In this document: piece after piece, positions 5,426 to 18,032 of the stretch
How positions within the stretch are numbered: position 1 is the first letter of the stretch
Layout of the letters: each line of letters starts with the position of its first letter
Assembly (NCBI RefSeq): GCF_011043775.1
Contig: NZ_JAAKXY010000002.1
Coordinates: 1 to 64,000 of the forward strand
Source: Natronolimnobius sp. AArcel1
GTDB lineage: Archaea; Halobacteriota; Halobacteria; Halobacteriales; Natrialbaceae
DNA length: 64,000 nucleotides
Reading direction: 5' to 3'
Position numbers and translations under genes: made by a program
Notes under the pieces: generated by a model
The model's database searches: none
Told to the model about the DNA's origin: nothing
What the model saw: only the letters and a program-made list of their open reading frames with translations

Positions 5426-6097
5426 CTATTTGTCAAGAAGTGCGCTCATGAGTTTGGTCTGGGCGGCAGCGAGATGTTCGGTAAACGTCGAGCGGGCAAC
5501 ACCGAGTTCCGCTGCGACATCGGTCGCGTTGGCACCTTTCGGATAGTCGAAGTAGCCCATCTCGTATGCTTTCTCGAGGATTTCACGCTGACGGTCGGTC
5601 AGTTCGTTTCGATCGACGACAACTGGATCTGCTGACTCCCCGTCGGGACCCTGTGAGAGTTCTTCGACCAGCACACCATCGAATCGGTCGCGAAGATTGT
5701 CGACGATCCCGGCGATTTCCTCGAGTTCGAGCGTATGAAAGGACAACAGGAGCGCGCCGTCCTGTGCACGAACCGACGACAGCGGCGTCCCGGTTTGTTC
5801 GACGATCTCACAGGCACAGTCAGTCCCGGCAGTGCGTTCGAAGCGATACACCGACTCGTGCTCGTTCGACTGGACGGTCGTGAGTTCGACACCCGACTCC
5901 GAGTCGGCAGGTTGGTCCTCGAGCGCAGCGGGTCCCGGAAGTGTGAACTCCTCGACGACGGTCTCATCGACCGTACTGGTAGCGTGGCCTTGAGTACGGG
6001 TGACGGACGTGGTCGAGTCGGCCGTTTCCGCGGAGATGCTGGCCACCGGGCAGTTCTGGGGGTTACGGACCATGATGGTTGCACGAAAGCCCGACAT
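5426..6097 (-). CDS. Bat-like helix-turn-helix (HTH_10) transcriptional regulator
   Basis: The C-terminal 55 residues (from LTDRQREILEKAYEMGYFDYP to the end) are the HTH_10 DNA-binding domain of the bacterioopsin-activator family, preceded by the typical Bat-type sensor-like region. The frame could extend to 6124, but the ATG at 6097 (MSGFRATIMV) gives the usual short N-terminus of this family. It lies between citrate synthase and the reductase operon and is transcribed in the same direction as both. Being just downstream of the reductase operon it may regulate it, which is an inference. Confidence 0.88.
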   Translation of the reverse strand: MSGFRATIMVRNPQNCPVASISAETADSTTSVTRTQGHATSTVDETVVEEFTLPGPAALEDQPADSESGVELTTVQSNEHESVYRFERTAGTDCACEIVEQTGTPLSSVRAQDGALLLSFHTLELEEIAGIVDNLRDRFDGVLVEELSQGPDGESADPVVVDRNELTDRQREILEKAYEMGYFDYPKGANATDVAAELGVARSTFTEHLAAAQTKLMSALLDK

Positions 6098-6179
6098 AGA
6101 TACACATACGACCACCCAGGTCATAACGGGGCCAGAGAATTCCCGGTCGGTGAAAATAACTGGTCCTCCCGTCCGTCGC

Positions 6180-7433
6180 TCAACACCACTCCTCGTACTG
6201 GTGCACGCGAGCGGGATTCAGCGGTTGCGGTTCGCGGTCCGTCTCGTCATACACCTCACGATGCTCGTCGTAGCTGATGCCGACCGATCCCGCTGGGTCG
6301 TACGCCCGCGGCATGATCGATTGTGCACGCCGGTCGTTCCAGTCGGTGATCCGCTCGTGTGCAGCTGGCCGGTCGATAGCGTGTGACTCGAGGCCGTCTT
6401 CGGCGATGTTCCAGGCGTCTTTGCCCGCCTCGGTGCGGACGACGAGCGTCGAGTACCCGTCCTCACTGCCGACGTTCCCGGCGCTGATGTCGGCCCCAGC
6501 GCCGACGAAGTCCGTACACTCGTCACAGCCACGTAGCCCCGCCGCATCGAACTCGGAGACGTCTGTCTCGAGCAGTGTCTCCCCGTCTGTGTCGAACGCA
6601 GAGAGGGCACCGTCGGCGATGTCGATCTTCTCAACAGCCGCGGGATCGACACCGAAGCTCTCGATCTGTGAGTGCAACCGTTCCTGCTCGAACGAGCGGG
6701 TGCACATCAACGCGATTGTGAGTGCAATCGGATCAGCGGGCTCGTGCCCGTAGCGATCGAGTGCCGTGGCTCCCTGAATCATACAGGGCGTGCCGACGAA
6801 CGCGAGATCGGCCTCGCTCGGCTCGAGGTCGGCCTCGGCGAGCAACTCGTCTATCTGACCGAGACCCATCGTCTGCGTATAGATGCTGCCACCGGCCGCA
6901 AGCAACTCCTCGCGAGAAGTCGCGAGGACGGCCTCGCCACCCAGTGGCTCCGTCTCGCTTTCTGTCGCGACAATTGCCCCGTCGATCTCGCCGGCCTCGA
7001 GAAGTGAAGCAAGCAAGGCGGTGACGACGCCTCCATCCTGACCTGCTGCTGCGGTCTCGCCGCTCGCCCGCGCGGCGTACAGTTCGGGTTCTTCGAGTCC
7101 ACGTTCATCCTCGAGCAGGGAGTTGACGCGTTCGTAGCGCAGGCCGCTGCGGGGGCAGAAATCCCAACAGCGCGAGCAGCCAGTACACATCCGAACGAGC
7201 GTTGGCCGCTTCTCCTCGGCGTCGATGCCGATGGAGTCGGATGGACAGGCAGCGACACAGGAGGCACACTGGACACAGCGATCAGCCTCGATAACGGCCT
7301 CATCAAGGTCTCGAAACCAGATCTTTCCTGGTGGATCTGCGGTGTCCTCGAGTTGCTCGCGCGGGTCGTTTCCCACGCCTTTCGTCTCGCCGATGCTCGG
7401 AATTCGTGGCTGATTGGATTCTGATTTCGACAT
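6180..7433 (-). CDS. FrhB-like coenzyme F420 hydrogenase/dehydrogenase beta-subunit family protein
   Basis: The 417-residue protein has two ferredoxin-type [4Fe-4S] motifs (C53-x2-C-x2-C-x3-CP and C83-x2-C-x2-C-x3-CP), then the FrhB N- and C-terminal domains (GQDGGVVTALLASLLEAG, VGTPCMIQGA, LRGCDECTDFVGAGADISAG, YSTLVVRT). In the family this module carries FAD and passes hydride between F420 and Fe-S clusters. The open frame extends far upstream, but the ATG at 7433 overlaps the upstream stop codon in TAATG, so translation is coupled to the siroheme reductase gene. Such a pairing resembles the fused F420-dependent sulfite reductase of methanogens. The electron donor role is inferred. Confidence 0.85.
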   Translation of the reverse strand: MSKSESNQPRIPSIGETKGVGNDPREQLEDTADPPGKIWFRDLDEAVIEADRCVQCASCVAACPSDSIGIDAEEKRPTLVRMCTGCSRCWDFCPRSGLRYERVNSLLEDERGLEEPELYAARASGETAAAGQDGGVVTALLASLLEAGEIDGAIVATESETEPLGGEAVLATSREELLAAGGSIYTQTMGLGQIDELLAEADLEPSEADLAFVGTPCMIQGATALDRYGHEPADPIALTIALMCTRSFEQERLHSQIESFGVDPAAVEKIDIADGALSAFDTDGETLLETDVSEFDAAGLRGCDECTDFVGAGADISAGNVGSEDGYSTLVVRTEAGKDAWNIAEDGLESHAIDRPAAHERITDWNDRRAQSIMPRAYDPAGSVGISYDEHREVYDETDREPQPLNPARVHQYEEWC

Positions 7434-10081
7434 TAGGAGACCCCTGTCCCGACGACCGCCGTGGTCGTTTCCGGCTCGTTCGAGACAATCTCGCGCAACT
7501 CCGCATCTGGCGTTTTCCGCGTCCACTCGGCGAACGACTCGCCATCCTCGCGGTGCTCGTCGTATGCACGGATCGTCCGCTGGATGACCGACGGAATCTC
7601 GTCGATTGGGACCGAGCCGACGAGCCAGTCGACAAACGTCTCGGTCTCGAGGTCGCCCCCGAGGCCAACATCGGCCGCGCGGGTGCTCTCGAAGTCGTCC
7701 CGATAGACCTCTCCGCGCAGGCCGATATCTGCGACCTGGGGTTGGGCACATGAGGCCGAGCAGCCCGACATGTGGACGCGGACGACCTCGAGTTTCTCGT
7801 CGAGGCCGGTTTCGGCAGCCCACTCGTCGAGTTCTGCTGCCCAGCGGTGGCCGCGGGATTTGGTTTCGATGAGGCCGTATTTGCAGAACTCCCGGCCGGT
7901 GCAGGTGACGATCCCCCGCGAGAACGGACCGGGATCGGGCGAGTACGTCGACAACAGGTTTTCGCCGAGGAAGTTCTCGAGATCGTCCTCGCCAACGCCG
8001 GAGAGAACGAGGTTCTGATTCGGCGTGGTCCGAAGTTCACCGCTTCCATACGTATCGGCGAGGTCGGCCAGTTCGGCGAGTTCACTGCCGCCGATGCGAC
8101 CAGTTGGGAGATTCAGCCCGATGTAGTGGGCGCCGTCGGCCTGCTCGTGGACGCCCACGTGGTCGCCGCGGTGGTCGGTCGTGAGAATCTCGTCGTAGGG
8201 TTCGAACTCGAAGGGTGCGTAGCGCTCGAGTTCCTCGCGAAACTGCTCAAGACCGTACTCAGCGACGAGGAATCGCAGTCGGTTGACGGCAGTGTCGAGG
8301 TAGCTGCCGTGGTCGCGAAACAGTGTGGCCGTCGCCTCGGCGAGGTCAGGAACCTGCTCGGGTTCGACGAAAATTCCCAAATCCGTCGCGGCGCGGGGGC
8401 CGTCCGAGAGCCCGCCACCGACTTTGACTGCGAAGCCGTCGCGACCGTCTTTGACTGCCGGAACGAAGCCCAGGTCCTGAATCTCCGCGCGGGCGCAGTT
8501 TTCGTGACAGCCCGAGAGGCTAACCTTGAACTTCCGTGGTAGGTTCGCGAGTTTGCGGTCGCCCTCGAATCGGTCTGCCACTCGCTCGGCAATCGGGCGA
8601 ACGTCGAGTGTCTCCTCGCCGAGTCCGGCGGCCGGACAGGCGACCACGTTTCGCAGGGTGTTGCCGCTGGCCTGCACCGTCGTCAGGCCAACGTCCGCGT
8701 ACCGGTCCCAGATTTCCGGCATATCCTCAAGGCGAATCCAGTGTAGTTGGATACCCTGTCGAGTCGTCACGTCGAGGTAGCCGTCACCATGGATCGGGTT
8801 CTGCTGCTCGCCACCGTGTTCCTCGGGTGCGGTCGCGAACTCGTCGGCAATTTCGCCAAGCGTGCGGGCCTGTTCGGCCGTCAAGACGCCACCCGGAACC
8901 TTCGTTCGCAGCATGAAGTAGCCGTCCTGACGAACCGTGTAGAGCCCGATCAGGTGCAAGCGGCTGAAGATGTCCTCGCCGAGTTTCTCTGGTAAGGCGT
9001 TGTATCCCTCCGGTGCGACCGCACGGACGCGCTCGAGAAGCTCGAGCGGGTTCCAGTCGGGCGAATCCGCCCGGACCCAGTCCGTCAGGCTGCCCTCGTA
9101 GAACGCGACGTTCTCGTAGCCAAGATCACGCAGGACGACGTAGGTGTGGCTCAGTCGCCGCGCGGTGTTACAGTAGAGGACGATCCGTTCGTCGCGGGTG
9201 AGTCCGCGCTCGGCGAGCAGGTCCTCGAGTTCGTCTTCGGGTTTCAAAATCCCTTCCTCGAGCAGATCCTCCCACCCTAACTGGACCGCACCGGGAATAT
9301 GCGATTGGTCGTACTCCGCGGGCGTCCGAGTGTCGACGACGACCGCGTCGCCCTCGACCGCCTGTTCGACGCCCTCGCGGTCGACGAGTGGGGCGTCATC
9401 CTGCAGGGCGGCGTCGTACTCGGTCAGCTCGAGATTCGGCCGCTTGTCGGTCAGGTTGCCGCCGAACTCCAGCCAGGCCTCGAGACCGCCCTCGAGCAGG
9501 TAGCAGTCTCCCTCGTGGCCGTAGACCAGCGCCGTGAGCAGGAAGCGAGCCGCGTTGACGCCATTTTCGTCGTCGATGGCGACGAGTGCGTCACTCGAGT
9601 CGATTCCGGCCTCGCCCATGAGCGCGCCGAAGTCGGCCTCGCTTGGCAGTTTCCCCGCGGCGACGCTGCTCGGGTCGCGAAACGCCTCGGCTGGAACGTT
9701 CACTGCGCCCGGCACGTGGCCCAGATCGTCGTAGTCGCGTCTCTCGCGGACGTCAACGACTATTACTGAGTCGCCGTCGCAGTGGGCCTCGAGCCAGGCC
9801 GGAGAGACGACCGTCGGCGCGTCGCTCACGGCAACCCACCCCCATCCGAGAGTCGATTCTTCTTCGTCGGCAGCCGGCGAGACTGCGGCAGTCGCCTCGA
9901 GCCGACCGCGTGCTCCGTCCGCCAGCCAGATTGTCGCGATAGCATCGTACACCCCGATAGCCACCCGACCCCCTTTCACCTGCGCGTACGGGTAAGTCGT
10001 ACCGTGGCTCCGGGACAACGGCAGCGAGCCGTCGGAAGTAATGACAGACGTATTACCCGTCATACGAACTGGCTTTATCAC
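7433..10081 (-). CDS. Fusion of tandem rhodanese domains with a siroheme nitrite/sulfite reductase
   Basis: An 882-residue protein. Residues about 90-210 are a first rhodanese domain whose active-site loop has Asp-rich DDENG instead of Cys (inactive), and about 225-340 a second with catalytic Cys304 in the loop CNTARR. Residues about 360-860 are a complete siroheme/[4Fe-4S] reductase with two ferredoxin-like repeats; the cluster ligands are Cys727, Cys733, Cys774 and Cys778 (CTGREFC and SGCSASC). Such reductases make six-electron reductions of nitrite or sulfite. The fused sulfurtransferase points to sulfur chemistry (thiosulfate or persulfide to sulfite to sulfide), but nitrite cannot be excluded. 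The start may be Met1 (10081) or Met7 (10063). It is followed in TAATG overlap by the FrhB-like gene. Confidence 0.88.
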   Translation of the reverse strand: MIKPVRMTGNTSVITSDGSLPLSRSHGTTYPYAQVKGGRVAIGVYDAIATIWLADGARGRLEATAAVSPAADEEESTLGWGWVAVSDAPTVVSPAWLEAHCDGDSVIVVDVRERRDYDDLGHVPGAVNVPAEAFRDPSSVAAGKLPSEADFGALMGEAGIDSSDALVAIDDENGVNAARFLLTALVYGHEGDCYLLEGGLEAWLEFGGNLTDKRPNLELTEYDAALQDDAPLVDREGVEQAVEGDAVVVDTRTPAEYDQSHIPGAVQLGWEDLLEEGILKPEDELEDLLAERGLTRDERIVLYCNTARRLSHTYVVLRDLGYENVAFYEGSLTDWVRADSPDWNPLELLERVRAVAPEGYNALPEKLGEDIFSRLHLIGLYTVRQDGYFMLRTKVPGGVLTAEQARTLGEIADEFATAPEEHGGEQQNPIHGDGYLDVTTRQGIQLHWIRLEDMPEIWDRYADVGLTTVQASGNTLRNVVACPAAGLGEETLDVRPIAERVADRFEGDRKLANLPRKFKVSLSGCHENCARAEIQDLGFVPAVKDGRDGFAVKVGGGLSDGPRAATDLGIFVEPEQVPDLAEATATLFRDHGSYLDTAVNRLRFLVAEYGLEQFREELERYAPFEFEPYDEILTTDHRGDHVGVHEQADGAHYIGLNLPTGRIGGSELAELADLADTYGSGELRTTPNQNLVLSGVGEDDLENFLGENLLSTYSPDPGPFSRGIVTCTGREFCKYGLIETKSRGHRWAAELDEWAAETGLDEKLEVVRVHMSGCSASCAQPQVADIGLRGEVYRDDFESTRAADVGLGGDLETETFVDWLVGSVPIDEIPSVIQRTIRAYDEHREDGESFAEWTRKTPDAELREIVSNEPETTTAVVGTGVS

Positions 10082-15754: not shown

Positions 15755-16102
15755 ATGACATCCAACACACTTCGCCTGGTAGTAGCGTTCGCAGTCGTCG
15801 TCGCGCTCGTCGGTGCAGTCGGACTCGTGAGTGGCGAGATGCATGCAGACAGCACTGACGACGACGCTGAGAACTCCCAGATGGCCCAAATGGCCGGTCA
15901 CATGAATGGTGACATGGCCGATCATATGGACGGCAACGCCATGGAGATGATGCAAGACCACATGGGTGACCACGACACGCCGACCATCACGAGGGTGAGG
16001 ACGGACACTGCTGACATCGCGGTTTGGCCCATTTCCCCCCTGTTTTCGCGTTATCCGTTAGCGGTGAGTTTGAGCGTCTGTCGCCGTCAGATATCGGTGT
16101 AG
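15755..16102 (+). CDS. Secreted Met/His-rich, probably copper-binding, protein (3' end irregular)
   Basis: 115 residues: a signal-type hydrophobic segment (about 6-27) and an exported region packed with Met and His (GHMNGDMADHMDG, MEMMQDHMGDH). Such Met-rich segments bind Cu(I)/Ag(I). After about residue 75 the sequence loses the acidic halophilic character (TRVRTDTADIAVWP...) and the frame runs 16 bp into the convergent DUF411 gene, suggesting that the original 3' end was lost by a frameshift or deletion near 15990. Function by composition only. Confidence 0.6.
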   Translation: MTSNTLRLVVAFAVVVALVGAVGLVSGEMHADSTDDDAENSQMAQMAGHMNGDMADHMDGNAMEMMQDHMGDHDTPTITRVRTDTADIAVWPISPLFSRYPLAVSLSVCRRQISV

Positions 16103-16575
16103 ACCGACGGATCACTACCGTCCTCGAGTCCGTAGACGGTCCACGTCTCTGTTTTTTCGCCACCCATTCCTGGTGAGCCGGCAGGCATCCCTGGAAGGGC
16201 GATTCCGTTGATAGCCGGTTCGTCGTCGAACAGTGTTTCGATACCCTCGACTGGCATGTGACCTTCGACGACGTACTCGTCGAGCACTACCGTGTGACAA
16301 CTTCGCAGGTCGCGTTCGATTCCGTGTTCCTGTTTGACCGCGTCGAGTTCGTCTGTAACAGTAACGTCTAACTCCGACTCAAGGTGATCCTGCAGGTAGT
16401 CTGCGTAGACATCACAGCAGTCACAACTCGGACCCTGATACTGCGTTGCACTCGCTACCGGAAGCGTCTGGTCCTGTTCCCAGTCGCCGGTTCCGTCACC
16501 GAGACACCCGGCAACCGAGATTCCGAGTGCAGTTGTCCCTGCTGCCAGAAGCGCCAGTCTCGAGGAGAGAGTCAT
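16087..16575 (-). CDS. DUF411 family copper-binding lipoprotein
   Basis: 162 residues: signal peptide with lipobox AGC near residue 24, then the DUF411 hallmark PSCDCCDVYADYL, the SCHTVVLDEYVVEGHMPVE segment and GIALPGMPAGSPGM. DUF411 proteins are periplasmic or exported metal-binding proteins found in copper-resistance clusters. It is transcribed in the same direction as the YHS permease and CopA, 89 bp downstream of the permease start-to-stop unit, so it is probably part of the same copper regulon. Confidence 0.88.
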   Translation of the reverse strand: MTLSSRLALLAAGTTALGISVAGCLGDGTGDWEQDQTLPVASATQYQGPSCDCCDVYADYLQDHLESELDVTVTDELDAVKQEHGIERDLRSCHTVVLDEYVVEGHMPVEGIETLFDDEPAINGIALPGMPAGSPGMGGEKTETWTVYGLEDGSDPSVYTDI

Positions 16576-16664
16576 GTATAGTCCGAAATCGTATCGGGTG
16601 TCGATATTGTTGTACTGGTAATTCTGAGTCGTCGGGAATCTGTAACTCGTTTTGTCGGGCAGTA

Positions 16665-18032
16665 TTAGAGATGTGATTCTGGCGCCTGTCTGAACAACTG
16701 CCTCGAGTCGTCACTTTCGAAGTAGTAGATTGACTCGTCGTATACGGTACAGTAGTCTGCATCCTTCACAGTTAGTTCAGCCCCCGTAACTGGGTCTTCT
16801 ACCGTGCGGTCTTCAGGTGCCCCTTTGCGTCCTTGAACGACCAGCCAGACAAACCCGAGCCCGACGAAGATGAAGATGACGTTCATGATCGTGATCGGAT
16901 CGACTCCGAACACCGTGATTCCGGCCCCAGGATCCGCGAGGGCGACATCCGGAATCAGATCAAGCACGGCAAACAGATAGTAGACAATGAATCCGGCCGT
17001 TGCCATCGAGATGTACAGGATGAGGGTCAAGCGATTCCCGATTCTCGAGCCGAATATTTGGCGGTAAATGTGGATGAGCTGCGGAACGATGAGATCCGCG
17101 TAAATATACGCAATAACGCCCGCAAACAGGAATCCTGACCCCCACAACACTGCCGCGAGAGGAATGTTCCCCATCGACCCGACGAACGCGACGAGCGATA
17201 CGAGCGGTCCAACTGCACTGCTGTACAGCACTCCCGTGACGCCCTCGCCACCGGCCCCGAAGAGGGCATTCCACGCCCAATTGGGAATCACTGTTGCAGC
17301 AAATCCAGCAATGAAGAATCCGGCAAGGAGCGGGTTGCCGAGCATCTTCACGTCTCTACGCGTCTGATTGGCCGCTTCGACCCAGCCGTTCCAGGACGTG
17401 ATTTTCTTCCGCCACGACGTCGTATGGGCGTCTGGATTCTGTTCGAACAGCGATTGACACTGGTCCGAACAGAAGTGGACACCCTCGTTCTTGTATTCGA
17501 CAGAAATCGCGTTCTCTCGGTTCATCCGCATCTTACAGACGGGATCAGTGACGACGGGTTGTTCCTCTCTCACGAGCCGGTCTCGGACAGCTGCTGCTTC
17601 GTCGTACGGAATCAGGTAGTGAGTGAGGATCACCGCGGCGACGATCATAATCGGGGCACCGACCGCCTGCGCGAGTGCGAACTGCCAGCCGAGAAGCGCC
17701 CAGATGAGAAATGTGAGGGCGATAACGAAGTTCGTTGATGCAATCAGGAACGCGACGGACGGGATGATGTGCGCGCCTTTCTTGAAGAGCGTCTTCGTCG
17801 CGGCGATATCGCCGAACGAACAGGACGTCGAGGCGAACCCGAAGGCCGAGGCGTAGAAGACCGACCGCGGACTCGCGTCGCCCATGTACTGGACCATTCC
17901 CTCCTTGGAGACGAACGCCTGAATTGCCCCCGAGAGCATGAACCCAAACAGCAGCGCCCACAGCGACTGCCAGAGAAAGTACCCCGTCGTCCAGAGCGCA
18001 TCACCGACGAACGAGAGGATGGACCAAATCAT
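16665..18032 (-). CDS. Permease (DUF318/SO_0444-like) with YHS metal-binding domains
   Basis: 455 residues with eight to ten membrane helices in two halves. The first half has FGFASTSCSFGD, typical of the DUF318 heavy-metal permeases. Between the halves (about 160-200) is a YHS domain (DPVCKMRM ... VHFCSDQC). The C-terminus carries a second, degenerate YHS-like segment (DPVTGAELTVKDADYCTVYD). Proteins of this layout accompany copper ATPases and are thought to move metal ions or metal-thiol complexes. It precedes DUF411 and follows CopA on the same strand with about 200 bp between it and CopA. Confidence 0.85.
   Translation of the reverse strand: MIWSILSFVGDALWTTGYFLWQSLWALLFGFMLSGAIQAFVSKEGMVQYMGDASPRSVFYASAFGFASTSCSFGDIAATKTLFKKGAHIIPSVAFLIASTNFVIALTFLIWALLGWQFALAQAVGAPIMIVAAVILTHYLIPYDEAAAVRDRLVREEQPVVTDPVCKMRMNRENAISVEYKNEGVHFCSDQCQSLFEQNPDAHTTSWRKKITSWNGWVEAANQTRRDVKMLGNPLLAGFFIAGFAATVIPNWAWNALFGAGGEGVTGVLYSSAVGPLVSLVAFVGSMGNIPLAAVLWGSGFLFAGVIAYIYADLIVPQLIHIYRQIFGSRIGNRLTLILYISMATAGFIVYYLFAVLDLIPDVALADPGAGITVFGVDPITIMNVIFIFVGLGFVWLVVQGRKGAPEDRTVEDPVTGAELTVKDADYCTVYDESIYYFESDDSRQLFRQAPESHL

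Follow-up and report, generated by a model that had tools for sequence, protein, structure and literature searches.

A conserved haloarchaeal operon pairing a rhodanese–siroheme reductase fusion with an FrhB-family protein: a candidate F420H2-dependent sulfite reductase

The window analysed here is the first 64,000 nucleotides of contig NZ_JAAKXY010000002.1 (assembly GCF_011043775.1) of the haloarchaeon Natronolimnobius sp. AArcel1. It contains a two-gene operon that encodes a tandem rhodanese fused to a siroheme reductase and, overlapping its stop codon in the sequence TAATG, a protein of the FrhB family (Table 1). By Pfam, the open reading frame of the fusion comprises two rhodanese stretches (PF00581), NIR_SIR ferredoxin-like half domains (PF03460) and two NIR_SIR 4Fe-4S domains (PF01077), and the FrhB protein matches PF04422 and PF04432 and carries two ferredoxin-type [4Fe-4S] motifs. 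The first-pass annotation, made from the letters of this DNA, had described the same arrangement, namely an inactive and an active rhodanese domain fused to a full siroheme/[4Fe-4S] reductase and a TAATG overlap with an FrhB-family protein bearing two [4Fe-4S] motifs; this part is borne out, and the length of 882 residues that it gave for the fused protein is revised below. We refer to the fused rhodanese–reductase type as R and to the unfused reductase paired with FrhB as A; B and the NirA proteins of nas clusters are types without FrhB.

The fused protein probably begins at GTG 9829 (residue 85 of the open frame) and is 798 rather than 882 residues long, because the fused genes of relatives begin at the equivalent position, several of them are closely preceded by an in-frame TGA, and a length of 2400 bp is annotated for the RefSeq relative NATOC_RS19955. 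On these grounds the 882-residue start was rejected, and the TGA codons that seem to interrupt the fused genes of relatives in fact lie just upstream of the true start. The extra 84 codons of the longer frame run through a conserved leader. A conserved small protein encoded by these codons was considered and rejected: despite high nucleotide conservation, its ATG is missing in one relative (L009) and an in-frame stop is present in another (L059).

The catalytic Cys304 of the second rhodanese domain (882-residue numbering, used throughout; Cys220 of the 798-residue protein) is invariant in all R loci, and the corresponding loop in the first domain lacks Cys. Cys304 opens a six-residue loop, CNTARR, whose terminal Arg is invariant in every R protein. 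A loop-end Arg or Thr is required for thiosulfate use in RDL2, DUF442 and TST (PMC8533005), and the CNTARR loop fits thiosulfate cleavage. An inactive first and an active second domain are likewise found in the tandem rhodanese of T. thermophilus (1uar) and in haloarchaeal stand-alone pairs (L022, L023); the R domains, which share about 51% identity with a haloarchaeal stand-alone protein, differ in being fused to a reductase. Because the characterised F420-dependent sulfite reductases (Fsr) do not reduce thiosulfate (PMC10229431, PMC9295563), thiosulfate would more plausibly be split first into sulfite and persulfide, with the siroheme then reducing the sulfite, than be reduced directly.

In the reductase half, the four Cys residues of the siroheme/[4Fe-4S] site (727, 733, 774, and 778) are present and align with C434, C440, C479, and C483 of E. 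coli CysI. All four sulfite-binding residues of CysI (R83, R153, K215, and K217) are kept in R, and Tyr, not Phe, occupies the Y69 position. In MjFsr, two Arg and two Lys bind sulfite, and these have been described as invariant among sulfite reductases (PMC10229431). The position of CysI K217, equivalent to N226 of tobacco nitrite reductase (NiR), is a Lys in every R, A and B sequence examined, whereas it is an Asn in all six nas- or transporter-linked haloarchaeal NirA proteins, the host's own included. R lacks the combination of Asn and nas linkage that marks ferredoxin–nitrite reductase NirA, all R loci having Lys at this position. This Lys/Asn marker cleanly separates the genomic contexts, and on residue identity it favours sulfite over nitrite as the substrate. 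We note that the A-type reductases beside FrhB (L132, L152, L153, and A loci generally) are annotated as ferredoxin–nitrite reductase despite their sulfite-type active site, a probable case of systematic misannotation judged by these residues.

The AlphaFold model of the reductase (predicted local distance difference test score, pLDDT, 70.7) was used for fold matching only, and matches Mycobacterium tuberculosis NirA/SirA (1zj8) and tobacco NiR (3b0g) at about 32–33% identity. Both share the two-repeat siroheme fold of R; unlike R, they have neither a rhodanese nor an FrhB component, and in tobacco NiR the Lys is replaced by Asn. Among solved structures, the R chain has a NirA-type match at E = 2e-78, versus 8e-11 for Fsr, the latter over part of the chain.

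The R type was found in 24 of 242 Halobacteria genomes, spread over four families, and some copies of the operon are plasmid-borne. The neighbourhood comparison across Halobacteria that the first-pass annotation had proposed gives a uniform picture, with an FrhB gene directly following R in 23 of the 23 other R loci. The A type, in which the reductase is unfused and the FrhB protein encoded after it is extended at the N-terminus, is present in about 60 genomes, this one among them. In the 242-genome search, a second FrhB match is absent from seven R genomes, and in one genome (G128) the R protein is the sole match at E ≤ 1e-60. No R fusion was seen outside Halobacteria in a phylum sample searched at E ≤ 1e-120, a strict cut-off at which distant fusions could be missed.

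Phylogenetically, R and A reductases form one clade (support 100) and R is monophyletic (99); type B, nas NirA, actinobacterial SirA, tobacco NiR and CysI all lie outside the R + A clade, so that the reductase does not group with nitrite reductases of nas clusters. The simplest history suggested by these sequences would be FrhB pairing first and a single rhodanese fusion later. The host genome has three NIR_SIR proteins: R, an A type (contig C4, with FrhB) and a NirA that adjoins a molybdopterin nitrate reductase and a major facilitator superfamily transporter in a nas cluster. Identity of R with the NirA of nas clusters is ruled out by the tree, by this separate NirA in the same genome, and by Lys at the discriminating position.

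These data also bear on whether the operon encodes an F420H2-dependent nitrite reductase, serving nitrogen assimilation or nitrite detoxification, with a rhodanese that is incidental or that serves to protect the siroheme. Nitrite as the substrate is disfavoured because the reductase lies outside nas NirA in the tree and carries the sulfite-type Lys; the Tyr at the Y69 position, the dedicated nas NirA of the host, and the fused sulfurtransferase, which points to sulfur, argue in the same direction. We regard a nitrite reductase as very improbable, even though the closest solved structures are NirA/NiR proteins, one R locus stands beside nosZ, and an F420-dependent nitrite reductase is known in FsrII of anaerobic methanotrophic archaea (ANME) (PMC9295563).

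For the partner protein, the best PDB matches are an F420-reducing subunit (F420 hydrogenase/dehydrogenase beta; E = 6e-43) and F420-dependent sulfite reductase (E = 5e-38). The motif QDGG, which in FrhB wraps the pyrophosphate of flavin adenine dinucleotide (FAD) (PMC3930138), and all cluster Cys residues are conserved among R-type FrhB proteins, so the FAD-binding residues whose loss would have spoken against such a module are in place. F420H2 is the likely electron donor because of these structure matches, the retained QDGG and cluster Cys, and the presence of the F420 gene cofD in the host genome. Alternatively, electrons could come from ferredoxin or another donor, with FrhB acting as an Fe-S/flavin adaptor that does not use F420. 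Known NirA/SirA-type reductases do use ferredoxin electrons, and members of the FrhB family need not all use F420; the FAD motif and cluster ligands shared with F420-reducing enzymes, and the F420 synthesis gene, nevertheless make this decidedly unlikely.

All 25 distinct aligned R-type FrhB proteins close with NPAR-x-x-QYE-x-WC, the Cys being the final residue, as does the FrhB of Halomontanus rarus, and this tail is kept even where overall identity falls to about 45–50%. Eleven A-type FrhB partners end in NP-H-x-x-x-H or similar and have no terminal Cys tail, nor does the third FrhB of the host. In the FrhB search of the 242 genomes, R-type matches extend to query residue 417, and the others, among the matches listed, stop at or before residue 411. 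The AlphaFold model of FrhB (mean pLDDT 38) is too poor to show whether the tail, with its invariant terminal Cys, is flexible. Because this Cys is present or absent together with the fused sulfurtransferase, the comparison suggests that the tail may carry sulfur; a role as an interface latch or as an additional metal ligand would be compatible with it too. In DsrC, a penultimate Cys takes persulfide from a sulfurtransferase and the arm reaches the siroheme (PMC3397948). The likeness of the FrhB tail to DsrC/TusE, an extreme C-terminal Cys potentially carrying sulfur between sulfurtransferase and siroheme, is one of functional analogy only: the FrhB Cys is last rather than penultimate, no sequence relation was found, and no DsrC fold or family is among the Pfam matches of FrhB.

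The restriction of both the rhodanese domain and the Cys tail to R, the A type being otherwise alike but without rhodanese, could also be read as product disposal, in which the rhodanese of an F420H2-dependent sulfite reductase receives the sulfur bound to the enzyme and stores it or delivers it as persulfide for Fe-S cluster or cofactor synthesis, rather than making substrate. Sulfane sulfur, however, and not sulfide, is what rhodanese chemistry requires, the loop has the form associated with thiosulfate (PMC8533005), and R loci have no conserved neighbouring acceptor genes; we consider this role unlikely.

Further FrhB variants were seen. In A-type FrhB proteins (L007 5197-6951 (-), L084, L089), the N-terminal extension contains a Cys-rich, CxCG-like patch (DACGCG, DTCTCG) together with a stretch resembling NVDxxGxLxDLxFTEP that is conserved; R-type FrhB lacks these features. 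The third FrhB occurs in the host genome (G000 contig C7, L125 5801-7084 (-)) and at L126 6059-7342 (+); that of the host adjoins an FAD_binding_2 oxidoreductase and a short-chain dehydrogenase/reductase, not a siroheme reductase, and its neighbourhood is a possible further F420-linked redox system.

Upstream of the fused gene lies a 93-nucleotide leader of fixed length that aligns without gaps across 15 loci. A covariance model has a single match in each of 15 of the 242 genomes, of which 14 lie upstream of R and one lies at an operon remnant in genome G191; ten R genomes, all from other families, have no match to the model. The G191 remnant (C1:1158000-1172000, locus L129) is a decayed R operon in which the leader, FrhB fragments and regulator are left and the rhodanese–reductase gene is gone. 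In most rows of the alignment, GGGUAA can pair with UUACCC and a GCCGU hairpin can form. As a structured RNA the leader found no support, since its covariation does not stand out from that of shuffles (39 to 445 of 500, depending on the measure); as a known riboswitch it was rejected for want of an Rfam match at E ≤ 1. Directly downstream of the operon, relatives of the DmsR_N/HTH_10 regulator occupy the corresponding position in roughly half of the R loci, with the same orientation in nearly all cases, and by this arrangement the regulator probably belongs to the locus.

An assimilatory-type, putatively F420H2-dependent sulfite reductase, aFsr, was proposed for haloarchaea in 2012 by Susanti and Mukhopadhyay (PMC3448663), as an aSir-type siroheme subunit encoded beside a free-standing homolog of Fsr-N (FrhB with two N-terminal [4Fe-4S] motifs). 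The R operon has the two-repeat aSir-type subunit (PF01077 twice, PF03460, and the structure match), the sulfite-type active site of two Arg and two Lys, and, next to the reductase, a separately encoded FrhB that bears both N-terminal [4Fe-4S] motifs. Beyond these, it has the tandem rhodanese, the Cys-tipped tail and the leader; the 2012 paper has no mention of a rhodanese or sulfurtransferase (PMC3448663), and A-type loci are closer to its description than R. Rhodanese–NirA composites, making up 19 of 529 halobacterial NirA proteins (cluster 195.2), were reported in 2024 (PMC11237513) and, as far as the available text tells, are the same fusion as R; that part of the text gives no FrhB partner, substrate argument or mechanism. 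The canonical Fsr enzymes (MjFsr/MtFsr, PDB 7np8, 7npa) resemble the R operon in that an FrhB-type F420H2 oxidase and a ferredoxin domain feed a siroheme sulfite reductase with the same four sulfite-binding residues. In Fsr, however, a single chain combines a Dsr-like half of one repeat with a ferredoxin domain inserted into it, whereas the R operon has a two-repeat NirA/SirA-like half, a separate, overlapping FrhB gene, and a rhodanese. The core idea is therefore a published prediction; what is added here is that the aFsr-type pair and the rhodanese fusion belong to one conserved operon. A literature search, largely outside subscription papers, found no earlier report that joins the two or describes the tail or leader.

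Taking domain content, invariant pairing, residue signatures, phylogeny, tail and leader as the observed basis, we propose, with a probability of about one half, that the operon encodes a two-subunit F420H2-dependent sulfite reductase of the aFsr type whose catalytic subunit gained a thiosulfate sulfurtransferase. Formation of the complex, the electron donor, the substrate, the direction of sulfur flow and the role of the tail are its predicted parts. The Cys of the second rhodanese domain would take the outer sulfur of thiosulfate (or persulfide sulfur) and free sulfite, which would undergo a six-electron reduction to sulfide at the siroheme-[4Fe-4S] centre of the same protein; the bound persulfide would be released as sulfide or passed on, possibly through the terminal Cys of FrhB. 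A fuller version, which we offer as possible but tentative, envisages the operon as an F420-dependent thiosulfate reductase complete in itself, in which sulfur is relayed internally from the rhodanese Cys to the terminal Cys of FrhB. By analogy, the tail would be an unrelated DsrC-like swinging arm presenting sulfur to flavin, Fe-S or siroheme, the freed sulfite would be reduced at the siroheme, and the operon-specific leader would set expression.

Several points weigh against the aFsr-type sulfite reductase. Sulfite reductases often reduce nitrite as well, and FrhB-like subunits can use other partners or work in the opposite direction. Most genomes with R also carry the A type, and therefore R may do something else. 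On plasmid 2 of Natronococcus occultus (L130), the R operon is directly upstream of the denitrification genes nosZ/nosD. The position of Cys161 in M. tuberculosis SirA, the Cys that crosslinks to Tyr, varies among R proteins as Cys, Ser or Gly, and is Ser in the window. Substrate calls from sequence can fail, as with ANME FsrII, whose activity with F420H2 proved to be that of a nitrite reductase (PMC9295563). As a separate observation, Cys is kept at the Cys161 position in the A and B types. The first-pass annotation had read the operon as a split haloarchaeal F420-dependent sulfite (or nitrite) reductase; the split reductase with an FrhB-type partner is supported by the invariant pairing, QDGG, the cluster Cys and cofD, the sulfite-type Lys and the tree disfavour nitrite, and the feeding of the siroheme by the rhodanese within one complex is a prediction.

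Table 1. Features of the R operon and its surroundings (positions in the window; residues of the fused protein in 882-residue numbering)
Feature	Position	Strand	Remarks
R gene: tandem rhodanese fused to siroheme sulfite reductase (candidate)	7433..9829	-	798 aa; open frame extends to 10081
First rhodanese domain, inactive	9464..9814 (approximate limits)	-	active-site loop without Cys
Second rhodanese domain, active loop C304-N-T-A-R-R309	9071..9364	-	Cys codon 9170-9172
Two-repeat assimilatory-type siroheme/[4Fe-4S] reductase	7478..9049	-	Cys 727, 733, 774, 778; Lys519 codon 8525-8527
FrhB-family F420H2 dehydrogenase subunit (predicted)	6180..7433	-	417 aa; start overlaps R stop in TAATG
Two ferredoxin-type [4Fe-4S] motifs of FrhB	7155..7277	-	Cys 53, 56, 59, 63 and 83, 86, 89, 93
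FAD pyrophosphate-binding motif Q132-D-G-G135 of FrhB	7029..7040	-	motif known from PMC3930138
Conserved FrhB C-terminal tail NPARVHQYEEWC, terminal Cys417	6183..6218	-	alignment of R-type FrhB proteins
93-nucleotide leader element, between TATA-like GATAAAG (10073-10079) and R start	9970..10062	-	conserved in relatives
DmsR_N/HTH_10 regulator directly downstream	5426..6124 (start likely ~6097)	-	Pfam; neighbourhood comparison

Elsewhere in the window (16087-18032, minus strand), a small protein with a CDCC motif adjoins a membrane protein with a TDPVCKMRMN (YHS-like) motif, and the two look like a metal-handling pair.

A 2021 review knew of no more than a single F420-dependent reaction from haloarchaea and described the role of the coenzyme there as enigmatic (PMC8305020). 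The R locus, together with its unfused A sister, is a concrete and testable F420 candidate in haloarchaeal sulfur metabolism, and would correct the public names of the A-type sister genes, now ferredoxin–nitrite reductase. If the Cys tail does carry sulfur, an F420 enzyme would have independently acquired a DsrC-like arm.

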